Part shown: positions 2,536-39,739 of the stretch, piece by piece | Numbering within the stretch: the stretch's first letter is position 1 | Layout of the letters: each line of letters opens with the position of its first letter | Source: a virus | IMG/VR virus record: IMGVR_UViG_3300043434_000094 | Coordinates: 1 to 39,862 of that record | Direction: 5' to 3' (one strand) | DNA: 39,862 nucleotides | Notes under the pieces: model-generated | What the model saw: the letters and a program-made list of their open reading frames with translations, nothing else | What the model was told of the DNA's origin: nothing | Database searches by the model: none | Made by a program: the position numbers and the translations under genes

Positions 2536-3354
2536 TTAAAAATTTGTGTAATACGTTATTCTTACTTCGCCGCGAGCACCTACGTCACCACCACCATAGT
2601 CACCACCGCCACCCCCGCCACCCGGTGCTGTACCAGGCATAGATCCAGCTTGACCTTGGTTACCGTTAGAACCTTTACCACCAGCGCCACCAAATACAGA
2701 TGTTCCACCTGGACCACCGACAGATCCTGACGTTTCGCCAGATCCACCACCGCCACCGCCGGCATATGTTCTATTTTGACCGGCAGCAACAGAAGGACCC
2801 GAGTTTGTTCCTGGACCACCACCGCCACCATCTTCAGTTATATAGCCTGAGTATGTAACACCTGGATTAGCAAGTATTGATCCACCAATTCCACCAGCAG
2901 CCCAACCACCACCTCCGCCACCGCCGGCTCTAGCTCCTAAGAAAGAACTTTCTCCACCAGGACCACCAGGACTACGAGTTCCTCCTCCGCCGCCACCGCC
3001 ACCAACTGTTATAAATCCTGTTTCTGGAATGTCTGAATACGCAACATTAAATTGCATATATGAACCTCCACCTGCACCACCGGCTGGAGAGTCGTTACTA
3101 CCGCCGCCACCACCGCCACCACCGCCCCATATTTGAACTGTCATATAGTCAAAATATGATGTGGGTTTAGTCCAACCAGATGACGCTGTAAACGTTTGTG
3201 CAGCGGGCGGATTAGCTAATTCAAAAACTTTTCTCCAAACCCCACCACTTTTTACCCATATAATTCTGCAGTTTCTCCAGACGCCGCCGCTCTTAATGTA
3301 AACTTTATTAGCTTGACGCTGTACACCACTAGATTTAATAAAAGTCTTAGTCAT
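2536..3354 (-). CDS. Glycine-rich tail-fibre protein with KSGGVWR repeats
   Basis: A 272-residue protein. The first 45 residues contain three copies of a short (I/V)KSGGV(W/Q)R element, an N-terminal repeat seen in many phage tail proteins. From about 70 it is dominated by glycine runs (WGGGGGGGGGSND, GGGGGGGGT, and others) ending in EVRITYYTNF. The architecture suits a fibre tip or adhesin with polyglycine helices. It lies between two shaft-like fibre genes, so the cluster reads shaft, tip, shaft with collar, small fibre, tip. The stop of the upstream gene is 3 bases away. Confidence 0.65.
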   Translation of the reverse strand: MTKTFIKSSGVQRQANKVYIKSGGVWRNCRIIWVKSGGVWRKVFELANPPAAQTFTASSGWTKPTSYFDYMTVQIWGGGGGGGGGSNDSPAGGAGGGSYMQFNVAYSDIPETGFITVGGGGGGGGTRSPGGPGGESSFLGARAGGGGGGGWAAGGIGGSILANPGVTYSGYITEDGGGGGPGTNSGPSVAAGQNRTYAGGGGGGSGETSGSVGGPGGTSVFGGAGGKGSNGNQGQAGSMPGTAPGGGGGGGDYGGGDVGARGEVRITYYTNF

Positions 3355-3357
3355 AAA

Positions 3358-4131
3358 TTAGAATTGATAGATAATATCACCATCTACGCCAATAGCATTT
3401 GAAGGAATTCCAGAAACTACAGACTGTACAGTTTTAGTTCCTTGAGAATTCTGTCCTGCAGTTTGTACGTACGATTGTGTATAAGACTGTGTAGCAATAG
3501 TACCAGACTCATTAGGAGCAAACAACGTTCTAGTAGTTGCGGTACTAATAGCAGACAACTGGAACGTTAAAACTTTAGAAGTGTCGGCATCATCAGTAAT
3601 AGAGAACAAACCATCTCTAAATGTTTGCTGGGCAGTCCAAGTATTTGATGAACCCGATATGCTAATAGATCCACCAAGAGAAACTGAAACACCATTAATG
3701 CTTATTGCACTATTAGTTAAAGATGAATTTGGGATAGATGTTACTTTGGAACCAGCTAGACTTGTGATCCATGAAGGATTGCTGTATGACTGATTTGTAT
3801 ATACACCATTTGTTACGGTGTCTGCGTTTCCAGTAACGTTACCTGTTAAGTTAGCAGTAATAGTTCCTGCCGCAAAGTTCCCTGAAGCATCTCTTCGTAC
3901 GATAGTATTTGCAGTATTAAGTGTTGCTTGTGAGAATCCATCTAGAAAGTCTGCGTCTAAACCAGAGCCAGATCCATCGACTGTTAACAACTTAGCTAAT
4001 ACGTCAGCTGCAGTATATGACGATGCGTCTAATTTAAGAATTAGCTCATTATTAATATTATTAAAGTTCGCATCAATCTCATTGTTTGTTAGTGGTGAGC
4101 CTTTAACGCTTCTAAGTGTTATCGATGCCAT
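3358..4131 (-). CDS. Tail-fibre shaft-like protein
   Basis: A 257-residue protein, paralogous in its first 110 residues to the collar-domain fibre at 1260-2522: both have ITLR...PLT..E(V/I)D.NF, YTAADVLAKLLTVD and GNF.AGTITA..GNVTGN. The rest is beta-rich with Ser/Thr/Gly and no enzyme motif, as expected for a trimeric fibre shaft. The start ATG at 4131 lies 20 bases inside the preceding small coiled-coil gene, suggesting translational coupling. Confidence 0.65.
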   Translation of the reverse strand: MASITLRSVKGSPLTNNEIDANFNNINNELILKLDASSYTAADVLAKLLTVDGSGSGLDADFLDGFSQATLNTANTIVRRDASGNFAAGTITANLTGNVTGNADTVTNGVYTNQSYSNPSWITSLAGSKVTSIPNSSLTNSAISINGVSVSLGGSISISGSSNTWTAQQTFRDGLFSITDDADTSKVLTFQLSAISTATTRTLFAPNESGTIATQSYTQSYVQTAGQNSQGTKTVQSVVSGIPSNAIGVDGDIIYQF

Positions 4132-4327
4132 TTGCTATCCGTTCCATTAGTGTCTCTAATTTATTTATTCTTTCCATAAGGTCTTCAATTGTTTTTTCTT
4201 TTTCCTGCTTTTGACGTCTAAGCATTCTATACTGTTGTAACTTAGTTGTGTCTGTTTCAAGGACAGCAGAAGAATTGCTGTCCCGAACAAGAGTGTCATT
4301 TTCTACTTTATAGAACATATTAGTCAT
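4112..4327 (-). CDS. Small coiled-coil protein downstream of the fibre protein
   Basis: A 71-residue protein. Residues 30-68 ([21 protein letters not shown] and on to [14 protein letters not shown]) form heptads of Leu/Ile/Met between charged residues, a clear coiled coil. It overlaps the 3' end of the 1769-residue gene by 8 bases and the next fibre gene by 20, so it is tightly coupled to fibre production. A fibre chaperone or small trimerising virion part would fit, but no family is recognised. Confidence 0.6.
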
Positions 4328-7300
4328 CCAAAGCGATCGCTCTTAAGTCTCTAATCTTAGGTGTTAGTGTTTCTGATGAAGACAATAGTACGATCTTAAT
4401 CATAAATGTATTAAAGCGAGTTGAGATTGGATTATCGTTAACTGGTAATCCTAAAGCATTAAACGCGCCAGTTGGGAAGTATCTGTGTTCTCTGTATTCA
4501 TATGTGCTAGCAGAGAATGGAACTGATCCTTCAAGCTGCATCTCTACCCAAGATTCATCAGCAATAGGTGTTACTTTTTCTGTTGGTAGAATCTTGTAGT
4601 ATACTTTTATGCTTGTGCCAGATGGTTTATACGCATCAAATGTAACATTTAAGTTAGATGCATCAAATCCACTAGCCAAAGTAACTGGTTTAGAAACATA
4701 TTTAGCTAATGCACTACCACCAACAGTTCCATTTTCGCCGGTAGAATTATTATTAATAACGTTCTTAACTACTACAGCTGATAGAGACGGTATGTCAATG
4801 ATTGGTGATACAGAAGTATCAGAAGTTGCTAGTGTTGCTTTCAATCTTATTGAAGCGTCACTTAAAGTAACAGCCTTAGTAGCTAATCTTCTCATTACAT
4901 TAAACGTAATGTCTTGATTAGTATTAATTGGGATGTAGTCAGACTCAAATGCACCGTTTGCATTATAGAACAAAGCTTCCCATACGATAGCTGTATTTGT
5001 TGGAGCTACTTGTGAAACTTGTGTAAACAATGTATTGTAGTCCATAGTTCCAGTTGGATCGTCTACTTCAAACACAGCAGATCCAGATGTGTTGAACTCA
5101 GCTCTATTGATTCTAAATTTCAAATCTAAGTTCTGGTCTGGTTCCCAGGTTCCAGCATTTTGTGACTTGAATAATGAACCAATGTATGGTTGTTTGTCGA
5201 TGCGTTTAGAGCCACCAACTATTGTGCCACCCATTTCAGCAACATAGATGTAGTAGTCTTGTGTATTCGCAAGAATAACAATAGAGTACTCATCTGGCGT
5301 CAAGTGAATTGGCACAGGGAAAGTAAATTTAGTTGCAGCTGAAGCATCATTAGATACTACTACTGATTCTGGATTCAACGTTACTTCAGCAAATGGTATA
5401 GTTGGCGTTGAAGATGGATATCCATTTACAGTTCTTCTAATCTGACATGTTACTGGAACACTGTTAGATTTAGATCTAAAGTATACTTCAACAGAAGTTA
5501 CATGCATACCAGATGGATAAACATCTGCCTCTACGCCGAATGTTTGAGCTACAGGGTCAGCTTGATATCTGAAACCAGTTTGTGTAATCACGCGCTGATT
5601 TTGAACAGATCTTGTAGTCAATATAGTTTCTTGTGTTGACTGTAAGATACCAGTAGCTGTGTATTTAGCTTCAGCGATAGACTCTTCAGTAGCAAGATCG
5701 TTCAATGAATTGTCGATCAAGCGAATAGTTCTTTCACCTGTTCTGAATGTAGAAGCAGGGATTTGGAACTCAAAGCCTAGGTTACCAAATTCGTCAGTAG
5801 TCAAAGCTGTACCAAGTGTAGGATAATCAGTTACACTAACAACAGTAGCTGTACCACCTCTAGCACCAGTTATAGTATTGCCGGCAACTATTGTTCCACC
5901 TGTTAAGTCATAGATATATAATCTACGTTGAGCTGGATTAGCAGTTGTAGGTGCAGTATAGATAGAGCAATATGCTGTCTTACCGCCGGTGATTGATAAT
6001 TCTTCTCCATCAGTAAATAGAGCATTTGCATGGCCAGAAACAACCACTACAGATAGAGGTTTACAGAAAGCTGATATATCTTGATTATCAAAGAATGGGT
6101 ACATAGTTGTATTTGGTTTAAGGAGAGTAGCTCCACCAACAACTGTACTTGCTCTGATAGTAGGTATAAATTGTACGTCAACTACAGAAGCACCTAAGTT
6201 TGTTTCTGTTGAACTTAATACATTAGTTACTATAGATGTAGATGTGTTAGTAATAGAAACACGGTTACCGCGACCAGTTATATTTTGAATAACTCTGTCA
6301 GCAGCATCTGGAACTGATACGTCAACAATCTGATTAATAGCAGGTAATTCAAGAGTATCTACCCATTGATCGAATGAAGGGTGTAATGAAATAGTTCCTT
6401 GGAACTTAATTACATTGAATGGGTTAACGTTAATCCATGTGCTAGCCAATGGCTGATTGATAGCATTAGTTTCAGTATATGCTAATGTTAGAATATCGCC
6501 AGTAGCAGTTGTGCTAGTTGTAGTAGCTAATGAATACTCGTTAAACTCTACTTCAAACGGTGCTCTCATTTCAGCGTTAACTGGATCAACGGCTGCATTA
6601 AAGTCAAAATCACCAGGATTTGCTAAAGAAGTTTGGCTATAGTTTTGAGCTCCAAATTCATTCCATGTGTTAACACCATTGAACCATGCGTTCCACCAAC
6701 CCCAGCGTCTTGTTGACCAAGTATTATTTGCAAAGATGTCTGCTGATGTAAATGAATCAACAGCAAAACCGTTCTTGAATTTTTCTACGCTAGATGAATC
6801 AACGATAGAAGAATCCTTAGCTTGTTTTTCTAACAAGGACAATTGAGTATAGTACTCAAGGTTCTTAATTCTTTTCTCTAACTTACCAATATCCTTCATT
6901 GTATAGCGTCTGTTGTCTACGTATCTAATAGAGATGTCAGAAACAGAACCAGTGTATGGAGGAATAACCAAGTCATAGATAACCATACCTTCTGTGTCAT
7001 TTATTGGCACAACAGGATTTAAAGCTGGAATTCCGCGCTTAACAAAGAATTGATTGTCAGGCATCGCAAGAATGCGGTCAATGCGACCTAGATAGTACTG
7101 ATAGTCGGCGTTAAGTGTTGTATTAGCGACTGGAACACGAGAAGCACTAGGGAAGGTAATAGTTCCTGGAGGGGCTCCTGCTGATAGAGTTCCATCAACT
7201 CTTCTTGGTCTAAAGTCAATACAGTCTCTAAGCTGATACACTCTTCCTGTGGCTGGATCAGTAAACGCTGGGTAGTCTTCATATGCTACGCCAGAGCTTG

Positions 7301-24148: not shown

Positions 24149-24580
24149 ATGAAGATTGATGATAAGCTTTCAGAGGTTTTTGATATAGAACCTGTAAAGC
24201 AAGAAGTGATAACAAGTTCAGGTGATGTAATTATTCCTGAACATAAAGAACAAGATGAAAAGATTGATTATGACTATGAAAAGTCTAGAAACAATCTTCA
24301 TTCTTTATTACAACAAGGTCAGGATGCTCTAATGCACGCTTTAGAAGTAGCAAAGAGCTCAGAGCATCCTAGAGCTTTTGAAGTTGTAGGTAACTTAATG
24401 AAGCAGCTTGCAGATATAAATGAGCAGCTTTTGAAGTTACATGAAAAGAAACAAAAGCTAGACACTCCAAAGGATGCTAAACAGGAAGGTCAAGCGCAAC
24501 AGGTTACTAATAACGCGATATTTGTGGGCAGTACAAGCGAATTGAGTAAATTAATTTCGAATATGTCTAAAGGAGAATAG
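24149..24580 (+). CDS. gp16: Small terminase subunit gp16
   Basis: A 143-residue protein (T4 gp16: 164). The pattern matches T4: acidic N-terminus, DYDYEKSRNNLHSLLQQGQDAL, central coiled-coil helices (EVAKSSEHPRAFEVVGNLMKQLADINEQLLKLH; T4: [28 protein letters not shown]), and the C-terminal NAIFVGSTSELSKLI (T4: NATVFMGSPTELMDEI). gp16 forms a ring that recognises DNA and stimulates the gp17 motor ATPase. Here it lies among tail genes, and the large subunit gp17 is not in this window. Confidence 0.88.
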   Translation: MKIDDKLSEVFDIEPVKQEVITSSGDVIIPEHKEQDEKIDYDYEKSRNNLHSLLQQGQDALMHALEVAKSSEHPRAFEVVGNLMKQLADINEQLLKLHEKKQKLDTPKDAKQEGQAQQVTNNAIFVGSTSELSKLISNMSKGE

Positions 24581-39142: not shown

Positions 39143-39219
39143 TGGTGGGCCGTCTGGGATTCGAACCCAGTGCCTATCGATTATGAGTCGATTGCTCATA
39201 CCAAATGAGCTTCCAGCCC
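39143..39219 (-). tRNA. tRNA with CAU anticodon, probably Ile2 (AUA) or Met
   Basis: 77 bases including encoded CCA. D stem GCTC/GAGC, anticodon stem ATCGA/TCGAT with loop CTCATAA (anticodon CAU), T arm CTGGG-TTCGAAT-CCCAG, acceptor GGGCTGG/ACGGCCC with six pairs (one G-U) and a G-A mismatch at 7-66; positions 8-9 are AA. The CGA-CTCATAA-TCG core is like bacterial and T4 tRNA-Ile2, which reads AUA after C34 becomes lysidine, rather than elongator Met. This is inference. Confidence 0.85.
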
Positions 39220-39224
39220 GAAAC

Positions 39225-39298
39225 TGGAGCGGGATAAGGGGATCGAACCCTCGCTAAAAGATTGGAAATCTCTTGTGCTACCATTACACCAATCCCGC
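39225..39298 (-). tRNA. tRNA-Gly (UCC)
   Basis: 74 bases with encoded CCA. Acceptor GCGGGAT/ATCCCGC (7 pairs), D arm GTGT-AATGGTA-GCAC, anticodon stem AGAGA/TCTTT with loop TTTCCAA (anticodon UCC), T arm GAGGG-TTCGATC-CCCTT, discriminator U. Closely like bacterial tRNA-Gly(UCC). Reads GGA/GGG. Confidence 0.93.
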
Positions 39299-39662
39299 AG
39301 TCCAACTGTTAGCTTACGTCCTTGCCGTTGGCGCTTGGACAGCCAGATCAAAGTTCTGGAAGACTTTTGGTGGTTATCCCACCGGACGACCGAATCCTTA
39401 TACGTCTATAAGGCAATAACTGTAAATTCAGTTTCGCATTTGCACTACACACATGCCGCAGTGTAAAGTGGCTCGGTTCTGTTAATAAGAGTACTGGTAA
39501 AACGTTTAAGACAGCTAAAAGTTAGCTCGTCTCCTGTACTAGCTTTTAAGATAACCTTTAGCTTCAGTTATCTCTCCTTTATCGATGGACAGCTCGCGGT
39601 ACAGGATCGTGATATCCCTAACCAGTTCGGGTTGCTTACTCTTTCTCTCGCACTCTTATATT
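39299..39662 (-). ncRNA. Structured noncoding RNA within the tRNA cluster
   Basis: 364 bases without a convincing ORF between tRNA-Arg and tRNA-Gly, co-transcribed with them. Reading the minus strand, I find at least eleven stems. Domain I (39485-39659) is closed by an 8-bp pair ATAAGAGT/ACTCTTAT (39652-39659 with 39485-39492) plus an adjacent 6-bp pair ACTGGT/ACCAGT (39621-39626 with 39493-39498). Inside are a 7-bp pair CCTGTAC/GTACAGG (39599-39605 with 39533-39539), a 7-bp hairpin (39549-39573) and a 10-bp hairpin with one bulge (39509-39532). Domain II (39318-39477) has hairpins at 39418-39433, 39396-39413 (7 bp, GACG loop), 39369-39383, 39343-39359, 39318-39340, and a pair 39472-39477 with 39389-39394. 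No tmRNA tag, RNase P or group I core is seen. Could be one RNA or two. Confidence 0.65.
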
Positions 39663-39739
39663 TGGCACCCTGGGAGGGAGTCGAACCCCCGACCGAAGAG
39701 GTAGAAGCTCTTTGCTCTAGTCCACTGAGCTACCAGGGT
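39663..39739 (-). tRNA. tRNA-Arg (UCU)
   Basis: 77 bases with encoded CCA. Acceptor ACCCTGG/CCAGGGT (7 pairs), D arm GCTC-AGTGGACTA-GAGC, anticodon stem AAGAG/CTCTT with loop CTTCTAC (anticodon UCU), T arm GGGGG-TTCGACT-CCCTC (one mismatch), discriminator G. It is the first gene after the cluster promoter. Reads AGA/AGG; T4 also carries this tRNA. Confidence 0.93.

Follow-up and report, generated by a model that had tools for sequence, protein, structure and literature searches.

The 364 nt between tRNA-Arg(UCU) and tRNA-Gly(UCC) in a T4-like phage are non-coding throughout and consist of two unrelated structured RNAs, RNA-B and RNA-A, followed by a 68-nt 3' extension. Covariation in relatives, which lay beyond the sight of an earlier note made from this sequence alone, establishes at the level of sequence comparison that the stretch is structured. 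RNA-A is apparently an undescribed phage RNA family. The window analyzed here is an entire IMG/VR virus record of 39,862 bases, and its source phage is T4-like, with a gp33-like transcription regulator 3' of the tRNAs. The minus-strand order is the end of an HNH-type gene, tRNA-Arg(UCU), the 364-nt stretch, tRNA-Gly(UCC), tRNA-Met, an 80-aa gene and the gp33-like gene. The features are as follows:

39663-39739, minus strand: tRNA-Arg(UCU), upstream neighbor (ARAGORN and Rfam)
39484-39662, minus strand: RNA-B, directly 3' of the tRNA-Arg CCA, with a relative in locus L165
39652-39659 with 39485-39492, minus strand: RNA-B closing helix, stacked on 39621-39626 with 39493-39498
39599-39606 with 39532-39539, minus strand: RNA-B inner helix, kept in L165
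39367-39483, minus strand: RNA-A, conserved core with five helices (covariance models R1 and R2, 43 matches)
39299-39366, minus strand: 3' extension (68 nt) between RNA-A and tRNA-Gly, common to locus L051 only
39225-39298, minus strand: tRNA-Gly(UCC), downstream neighbor (ARAGORN and Rfam)
39143-39219, minus strand: tRNA-Met(CAU) (ARAGORN and Rfam)

According to ARAGORN, the stretch (39299-39662, minus strand) touches both flanking tRNAs; it begins right after the CCA of tRNA-Arg, as the earlier note had stated, and ends 0 bases, not 1, from tRNA-Gly. The absence of a credible ORF was borne out, the longest sense ORF being 51 aa and extending into a tRNA. A cmscan search of the region against Rfam 15 (GOLLD, ROOL and tmRNA included) returned the three tRNAs alone, with 0 matches in the stretch at E up to 10, and both ARAGORN and Rfam were negative there for one- and two-piece tmRNA. 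The long-range pairs described previously are indeed present: AUAAGAGU/ACUCUUAU (8 bp), the coaxial ACUGGU/ACCAGU (6 bp) and the inner CCUGUAC/GUACAGG (7 bp). With no matching Rfam family and with covariation in relatives, the proposal of an undescribed structured RNA holds. Its description as one large RNA resembling GOLLD or ROOL is not supported, since RNA-B and RNA-A are unrelated and lie apart in another phage (L165), and the rest of the stretch is a local extension.

The MFE of the stretch, which had been suggested as a check, gave z = -2.45 against shuffled sequences (second estimate, -2.19). However, 70 control windows from the same contig have a mean z of -0.9 (sd 1.2) and about ten are as low as the stretch, so the energy test could not settle the matter. 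An MFE z-score was rejected as proof of structure for the same reason, and folding energy alone is weak evidence that would have revealed neither the RNA-A nor the RNA-B findings. A helix as long as the RNA-B closing helix and spanning >150 nt occurred in 1 of 100 shuffles. The lowest control-window z belongs to 24201-24564 (-4.8 on the minus strand, -3.4 on the plus strand), in a coding region.

Exact patterns taken from the window's own sequence yielded either no relative or a chance match in an RNA-phage-polymerase-like gene, and the gp33-like neighbor gene used as a query led to a syntenic sister, L002, without RNA-A. Among loci reached via the upstream HNH gene, blastn matched only the 3' half of the stretch, in L051 (81%, positions 179-364 of the stretch), L049 and L044; all three copies lie in tRNA clusters, at differing places. 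A motif from their alignment was used for the first IMG/VR motif scan, which added L053, L057 and L090. In the structure filter, true members score 16-18 and every other pattern hit scores 9 or less. Covariance model R1, built on the six-sequence alignment, then detected G005:3539-3632 (the contig of L045) at E ~1e-11, a member that the model had not seen and that earlier patterns had not matched; its P4 reads GAG-GACG-CUU instead of AUA-GACG-UAU, so that helix and loop are kept. The pattern of the last scan took in this member and, combined with R1, gave 43 matches in IMG/VR contigs, representing 34 distinct sequences and 23 clusters at 85% identity. The distinct sequences are 94-133 nt long and have a mean pairwise identity of 0.63. 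When model R2 was run over 533 kb, known members alone were returned.

Relatives were also sought elsewhere. In 50,697 named phages, blastn with the 364-nt stretch and several RNA-A copies gave no credible match; hits in S-TIP28 and Vibrio D260 were rejected as lying inside coding genes. A bacterial origin was rejected: none of 754 genomes sampled from two classes contains the strict RNA-A pattern, and the 12 pattern hits in genome contigs fail the structure test. Five other RNA-A members showed no overlapping Rfam match, and no description of the motif was found in the open literature, although subscription papers or preprints could contain one.

In the predicted fold of RNA-A, P1 closes a junction of the variable P2 and hairpins P3 and P4, and hairpin P5 follows. 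Percentages are alignment cells that pair:

39474-39478 with 39388-39392, minus strand: P1, closes the junction, 5 bp; 97.1%, double changes in 3 of 5 pairs
39467-39470 with 39443-39446, minus strand: P2, variable in length and sequence; 87.5%, double changes in 4 of 4 pairs
39418-39433, minus strand: P3, 5-bp hairpin, loop AAUUUA (39423-39428); 98.2%, 3 pairs double-changed
39396-39413, minus strand: P4, 7-bp hairpin, loop GACG (39403-39406; in the search patterns); 98.3%, double changes in 7 of 7 pairs
39369-39383, minus strand: P5, 5-bp hairpin, pentaloop GAUAA (39374-39378); 100%, double changes in 5 of 5 pairs

Already in the six-sequence R1 alignment, double compensatory changes affect 12 of 26 pairs, and 94.7% of cells pair, versus 28-43% with slid partners. 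Across the 34 distinct sequences, such changes are found in 22 of the 26 pairs of the five helices, supplying the covariation in homologs that had been proposed as a check; 96.8% of cells pair, versus 29-45% with slid partners, and the covariation score is 0.635, versus 0.19 for shuffled and 0.04-0.10 for slid alignments. RNAalifold returns the same five helices from this alignment, which was fitted to the model, and recovers P1, P3, P4 and P5 with 12 double-changed pairs from a seven-sequence MAFFT alignment (A3) that was not. A scan of all column pairs gave no covarying helix beyond the five nested ones and none crossing them; loop-loop contacts of the kissing or pseudoknot type, which lack covariation, were rejected.

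Helix lengths are near-fixed in the family. P5 has 5-6 bp and an RANAA loop, whereas P2 is shortened or absent in L164; in the window copy, the outer pair of P1 is an unpaired A-C. In the junction, GUGAA, which links P3 to P4, and UA, 5' of the P1 3' strand, are ~90% conserved or more. The P3 loop AAUUUA, which was in every search pattern, is identical in 34 of 34 sequences. Because the patterns contained AAUUUA and GACG, with GUGAR added for the last scan, the invariance of these elements is partly built in; both loops also occur in the three copies that similarity revealed (L044, L049 and L051) and in the L045-contig member, found by the model.

RNA-A is intergenic and occurs in T4-like tRNA clusters, among T7-like replication genes and in jumbo-phage chaperonin operons. 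About half of the members lie outside tRNA clusters, between protein genes, so the earlier assignment to tRNA clusters does not extend to RNA-A as a family. Where tRNAs adjoin, they are tRNA-Gln/tRNA-Trp, tRNA-Asp/tRNA-Arg, tRNA-Met/tRNA-Asn or tRNA-Cys. Elsewhere, RNA-A separates the genes for a T7-like primase-helicase and a DNA polymerase (L170), lies immediately 5' of a ribonucleotide reductase gene (L175) or is close to a terminase gene (L206). In the 344-kb record of L191, it follows the stop codon of ClpS, itself downstream of GroEL and Hsp20, and the next gene is convergent; the arrangement is similar in L203 (317-kb record) and L177, with a stop codon on one side and a convergent gene on the other. 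Often 0-16 nt separate RNA-A from the stop codon or tRNA CCA end that precedes it, and many members end 3-8 nt 5' of a tRNA. No conserved neighbor gene was found among the contexts compared, and even close relatives of the window's tRNA cluster (L044, G005, L049, L051) have RNA-A at differing sites.

Exactly one RNA-A was present in each of 24 positive records in a 37-record scan, including records of 344, 317, 158 and 149 kb, as in each significant positive of an earlier 20-record scan; this copy number is a lower bound, since records may be fragments. In the sister contig G001 (L002), the RNA-A hit is unconvincing (12.6 bits, E 0.68), so RNA-A is dispensable or replaceable. Several neighboring genes were seen in passing. 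The 344-kb phage record shows a GroEL, Hsp20 and ClpS operon with RNA-A as its end (L216:7083-9614). An ORF resembling a GIY-YIG homing endonuclease by eye starts 9 nt past RNA-A, before tRNA-Trp, in L172, L174, L192 and L195, and an HNH gene ends 3 nt 5' of RNA-A in L051. A suspected peptidyl-tRNA hydrolase gene 3' of RNA-A in L057 was dropped, having no intact ORF or Pfam hit. In L002, an ORF that by eye resembles an RNA ligase (3975-4526) follows tRNA-Arg, in the place that RNA-B and RNA-A occupy in the window.

RNA-B is a probable second structured phage ncRNA, for which the support, from two sequences, is good but not strong. Its relative, L165:6006-6065 (78% over 60 nt), belongs to a 24-tRNA cluster in which RNA-B (5851-6065) and RNA-A (3253-3362) are ~2.5 kb apart. 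Helices were compared directly, as the 3' half was misaligned in the RNAalifold alignment. All three nested long-range helices are kept in L165 with altered letters: the closing helix AUAAGAG/CUCUUAU becomes AUUUGAG/CUCAAAU, the stacked helix ACUGGU/ACCAGU becomes ACUGUU/AACAGU and the inner helix UCCUGUAC/GUACAGGA becomes UCCUGA/UCAGGA. The L165 copy, folded alone, adopts a similar fold. The 3' extension (39299-39366) is 78% identical to its counterpart in L051, where its hairpin CCAGA/UCUGG has become CCUAA/UUAGG.

A single copy at unrelated sites, a near-rigid fold and no conserved neighbor fit a trans-acting RNA, although we infer action in trans only from the single copy and the lack of a conserved neighbor. 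We give an even chance to the reading that the two RNAs are independent phage ncRNAs and that RNA-A acts in trans after release from polycistronic transcripts. RNA-A would be transcribed as a passenger, at a cistron end or between cistrons, and the tRNA-processing machinery (RNase P and 3' enzymes) or, elsewhere, host RNases would cut it free. It would fold into a compact body whose loops may make tertiary or protein contacts, and its target in infection would be a component of either the host or the phage. RNA-B would be a second such RNA that adjoins RNA-A by chance in the window phage. To our knowledge, very few structured RNAs are known across unrelated tailed phages, and a single-copy RNA-A without a fixed neighbor in T4-like, T7-like and jumbo phages suggests a general need in infection. 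The chances fall slightly short of even that RNA-A represents a new class of phage RNA that serves infection in general, either as a new ribozyme or by acting in trans on a host machine that is conserved, and that these phages share it and pass it among themselves. The covariance model makes RNA-A directly testable.

Other roles for RNA-A have to be weighed against action in trans. Regulation of downstream genes from a 5'-UTR, as a riboswitch or a put-like antitermination element, would suit L049, L164 and the L190 group, where a ribosome-binding site and start codon lie within ~5-60 nt. However, a conserved regulated gene, a riboswitch trait, is missing downstream, where tRNAs, DNA polymerase, ribonucleotide reductase, other unrelated proteins or convergent genes are found instead. 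This reading is very improbable, since in L191, L203 and L177 a convergent gene alone follows directly. The put RNA of HK022 works regardless of gene identity, an indifference that RNA-A shares, but its sites of action lie 5' of terminators in early operons, whereas RNA-A can end an operon. Unlikely, but deserving more weight, is action in cis, with RNA-A as a 3'-end or intercistronic element that blocks exonucleases on its own transcript or directs how that transcript is processed; the positions directly after stop codons or tRNA CCA ends agree with it, as do the end of the GroEL-Hsp20-ClpS operon in L191 and the like positions in L203 and L177. A general stabilizer should nevertheless recur, and each of the 24 positive records has one copy, next to neighbor genes that vary. 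RNA-A could also cleave itself as a ribozyme and in this way separate cistrons or trim the ends of tRNAs, a role proposed for theta ribozymes, which are HDV-like, lie beside phage tRNAs and form a nested double pseudoknot (PMC10879173). Both are phage RNAs adjoining tRNAs, and the compact junction, near-fixed helix lengths, conserved unpaired bases and placement (many members 0-16 nt past a gene or tRNA, many 3-8 nt before a tRNA) speak for a ribozyme. We regard this as rather unlikely: none of Rfam's known ribozyme families matches, the flanks where cleavage would be expected are weakly conserved, and covariation supports five nested helices with no crossing helix and no extra pairs for an HDV-like double pseudoknot.

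Membership of the stretch in a known family (GOLLD, ROOL, tmRNA or T4 RNA C/D) is highly improbable. GOLLD and ROOL, two phage RNAs without a known function, are often found near tRNA islands (PMC12286853), and the stretch resembles them as a structured phage RNA in a tRNA cluster. They are, however, ornate, hundreds of nt long and form pseudoknots and cages, whereas RNA-A has 94-133 nt, nested helices only, no Rfam model match and about half of its members outside tRNA clusters. A comparable place, after tRNA-Arg in a T4-like tRNA cluster, is taken by T4 RNA C and RNA D (species 1 and 2), which are ~119-139 nt long and which PMC9697503 lists as late RNAs without a known function; yet with filters off the score of R2 on the rnaC/rnaD region does not exceed 5 bits, so there is no sequence-structure match. 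The wcaG, manA and glnA RNAs are cis-regulatory RNAs of phages (PMC9964418) that share with RNA-A their structured nature and occurrence in T4-like phages, but RNA-A has neither a conserved target gene nor an Rfam match. Chance structure in a decayed intergenic region would agree with a folding energy unexceptional for the contig; it is refuted for RNA-A by compensatory changes over 34 distinct sequences and opposed for RNA-B by two, and its probability for the stretch is close to nil. Against shuffles, T4 rnaC itself (L217:1909-2047) has z -4.6 and a T-arm-like hairpin, CCGGGUUCGAAUCCCGG, and T4 RNA D is unremarkable (z -0.8).

The tRNA clusters of this lineage seem to contain several more such RNAs, which bears on the role of T4 RNAs C and D. 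In the sister phage, L002:5291-5571 is a separate structured RNA candidate (281 nt, z -4.0) directly 5' of tRNA-Gly; a 64% relative occupies the same place in L052 (5456-5732), and when the two are folded together, 14 pairs differ in both partners. Between tRNA-Trp and tRNA-His, L002:629-733 and L051:2934-3037 share a 105-nt non-coding segment that is 88% identical and has long hairpins.
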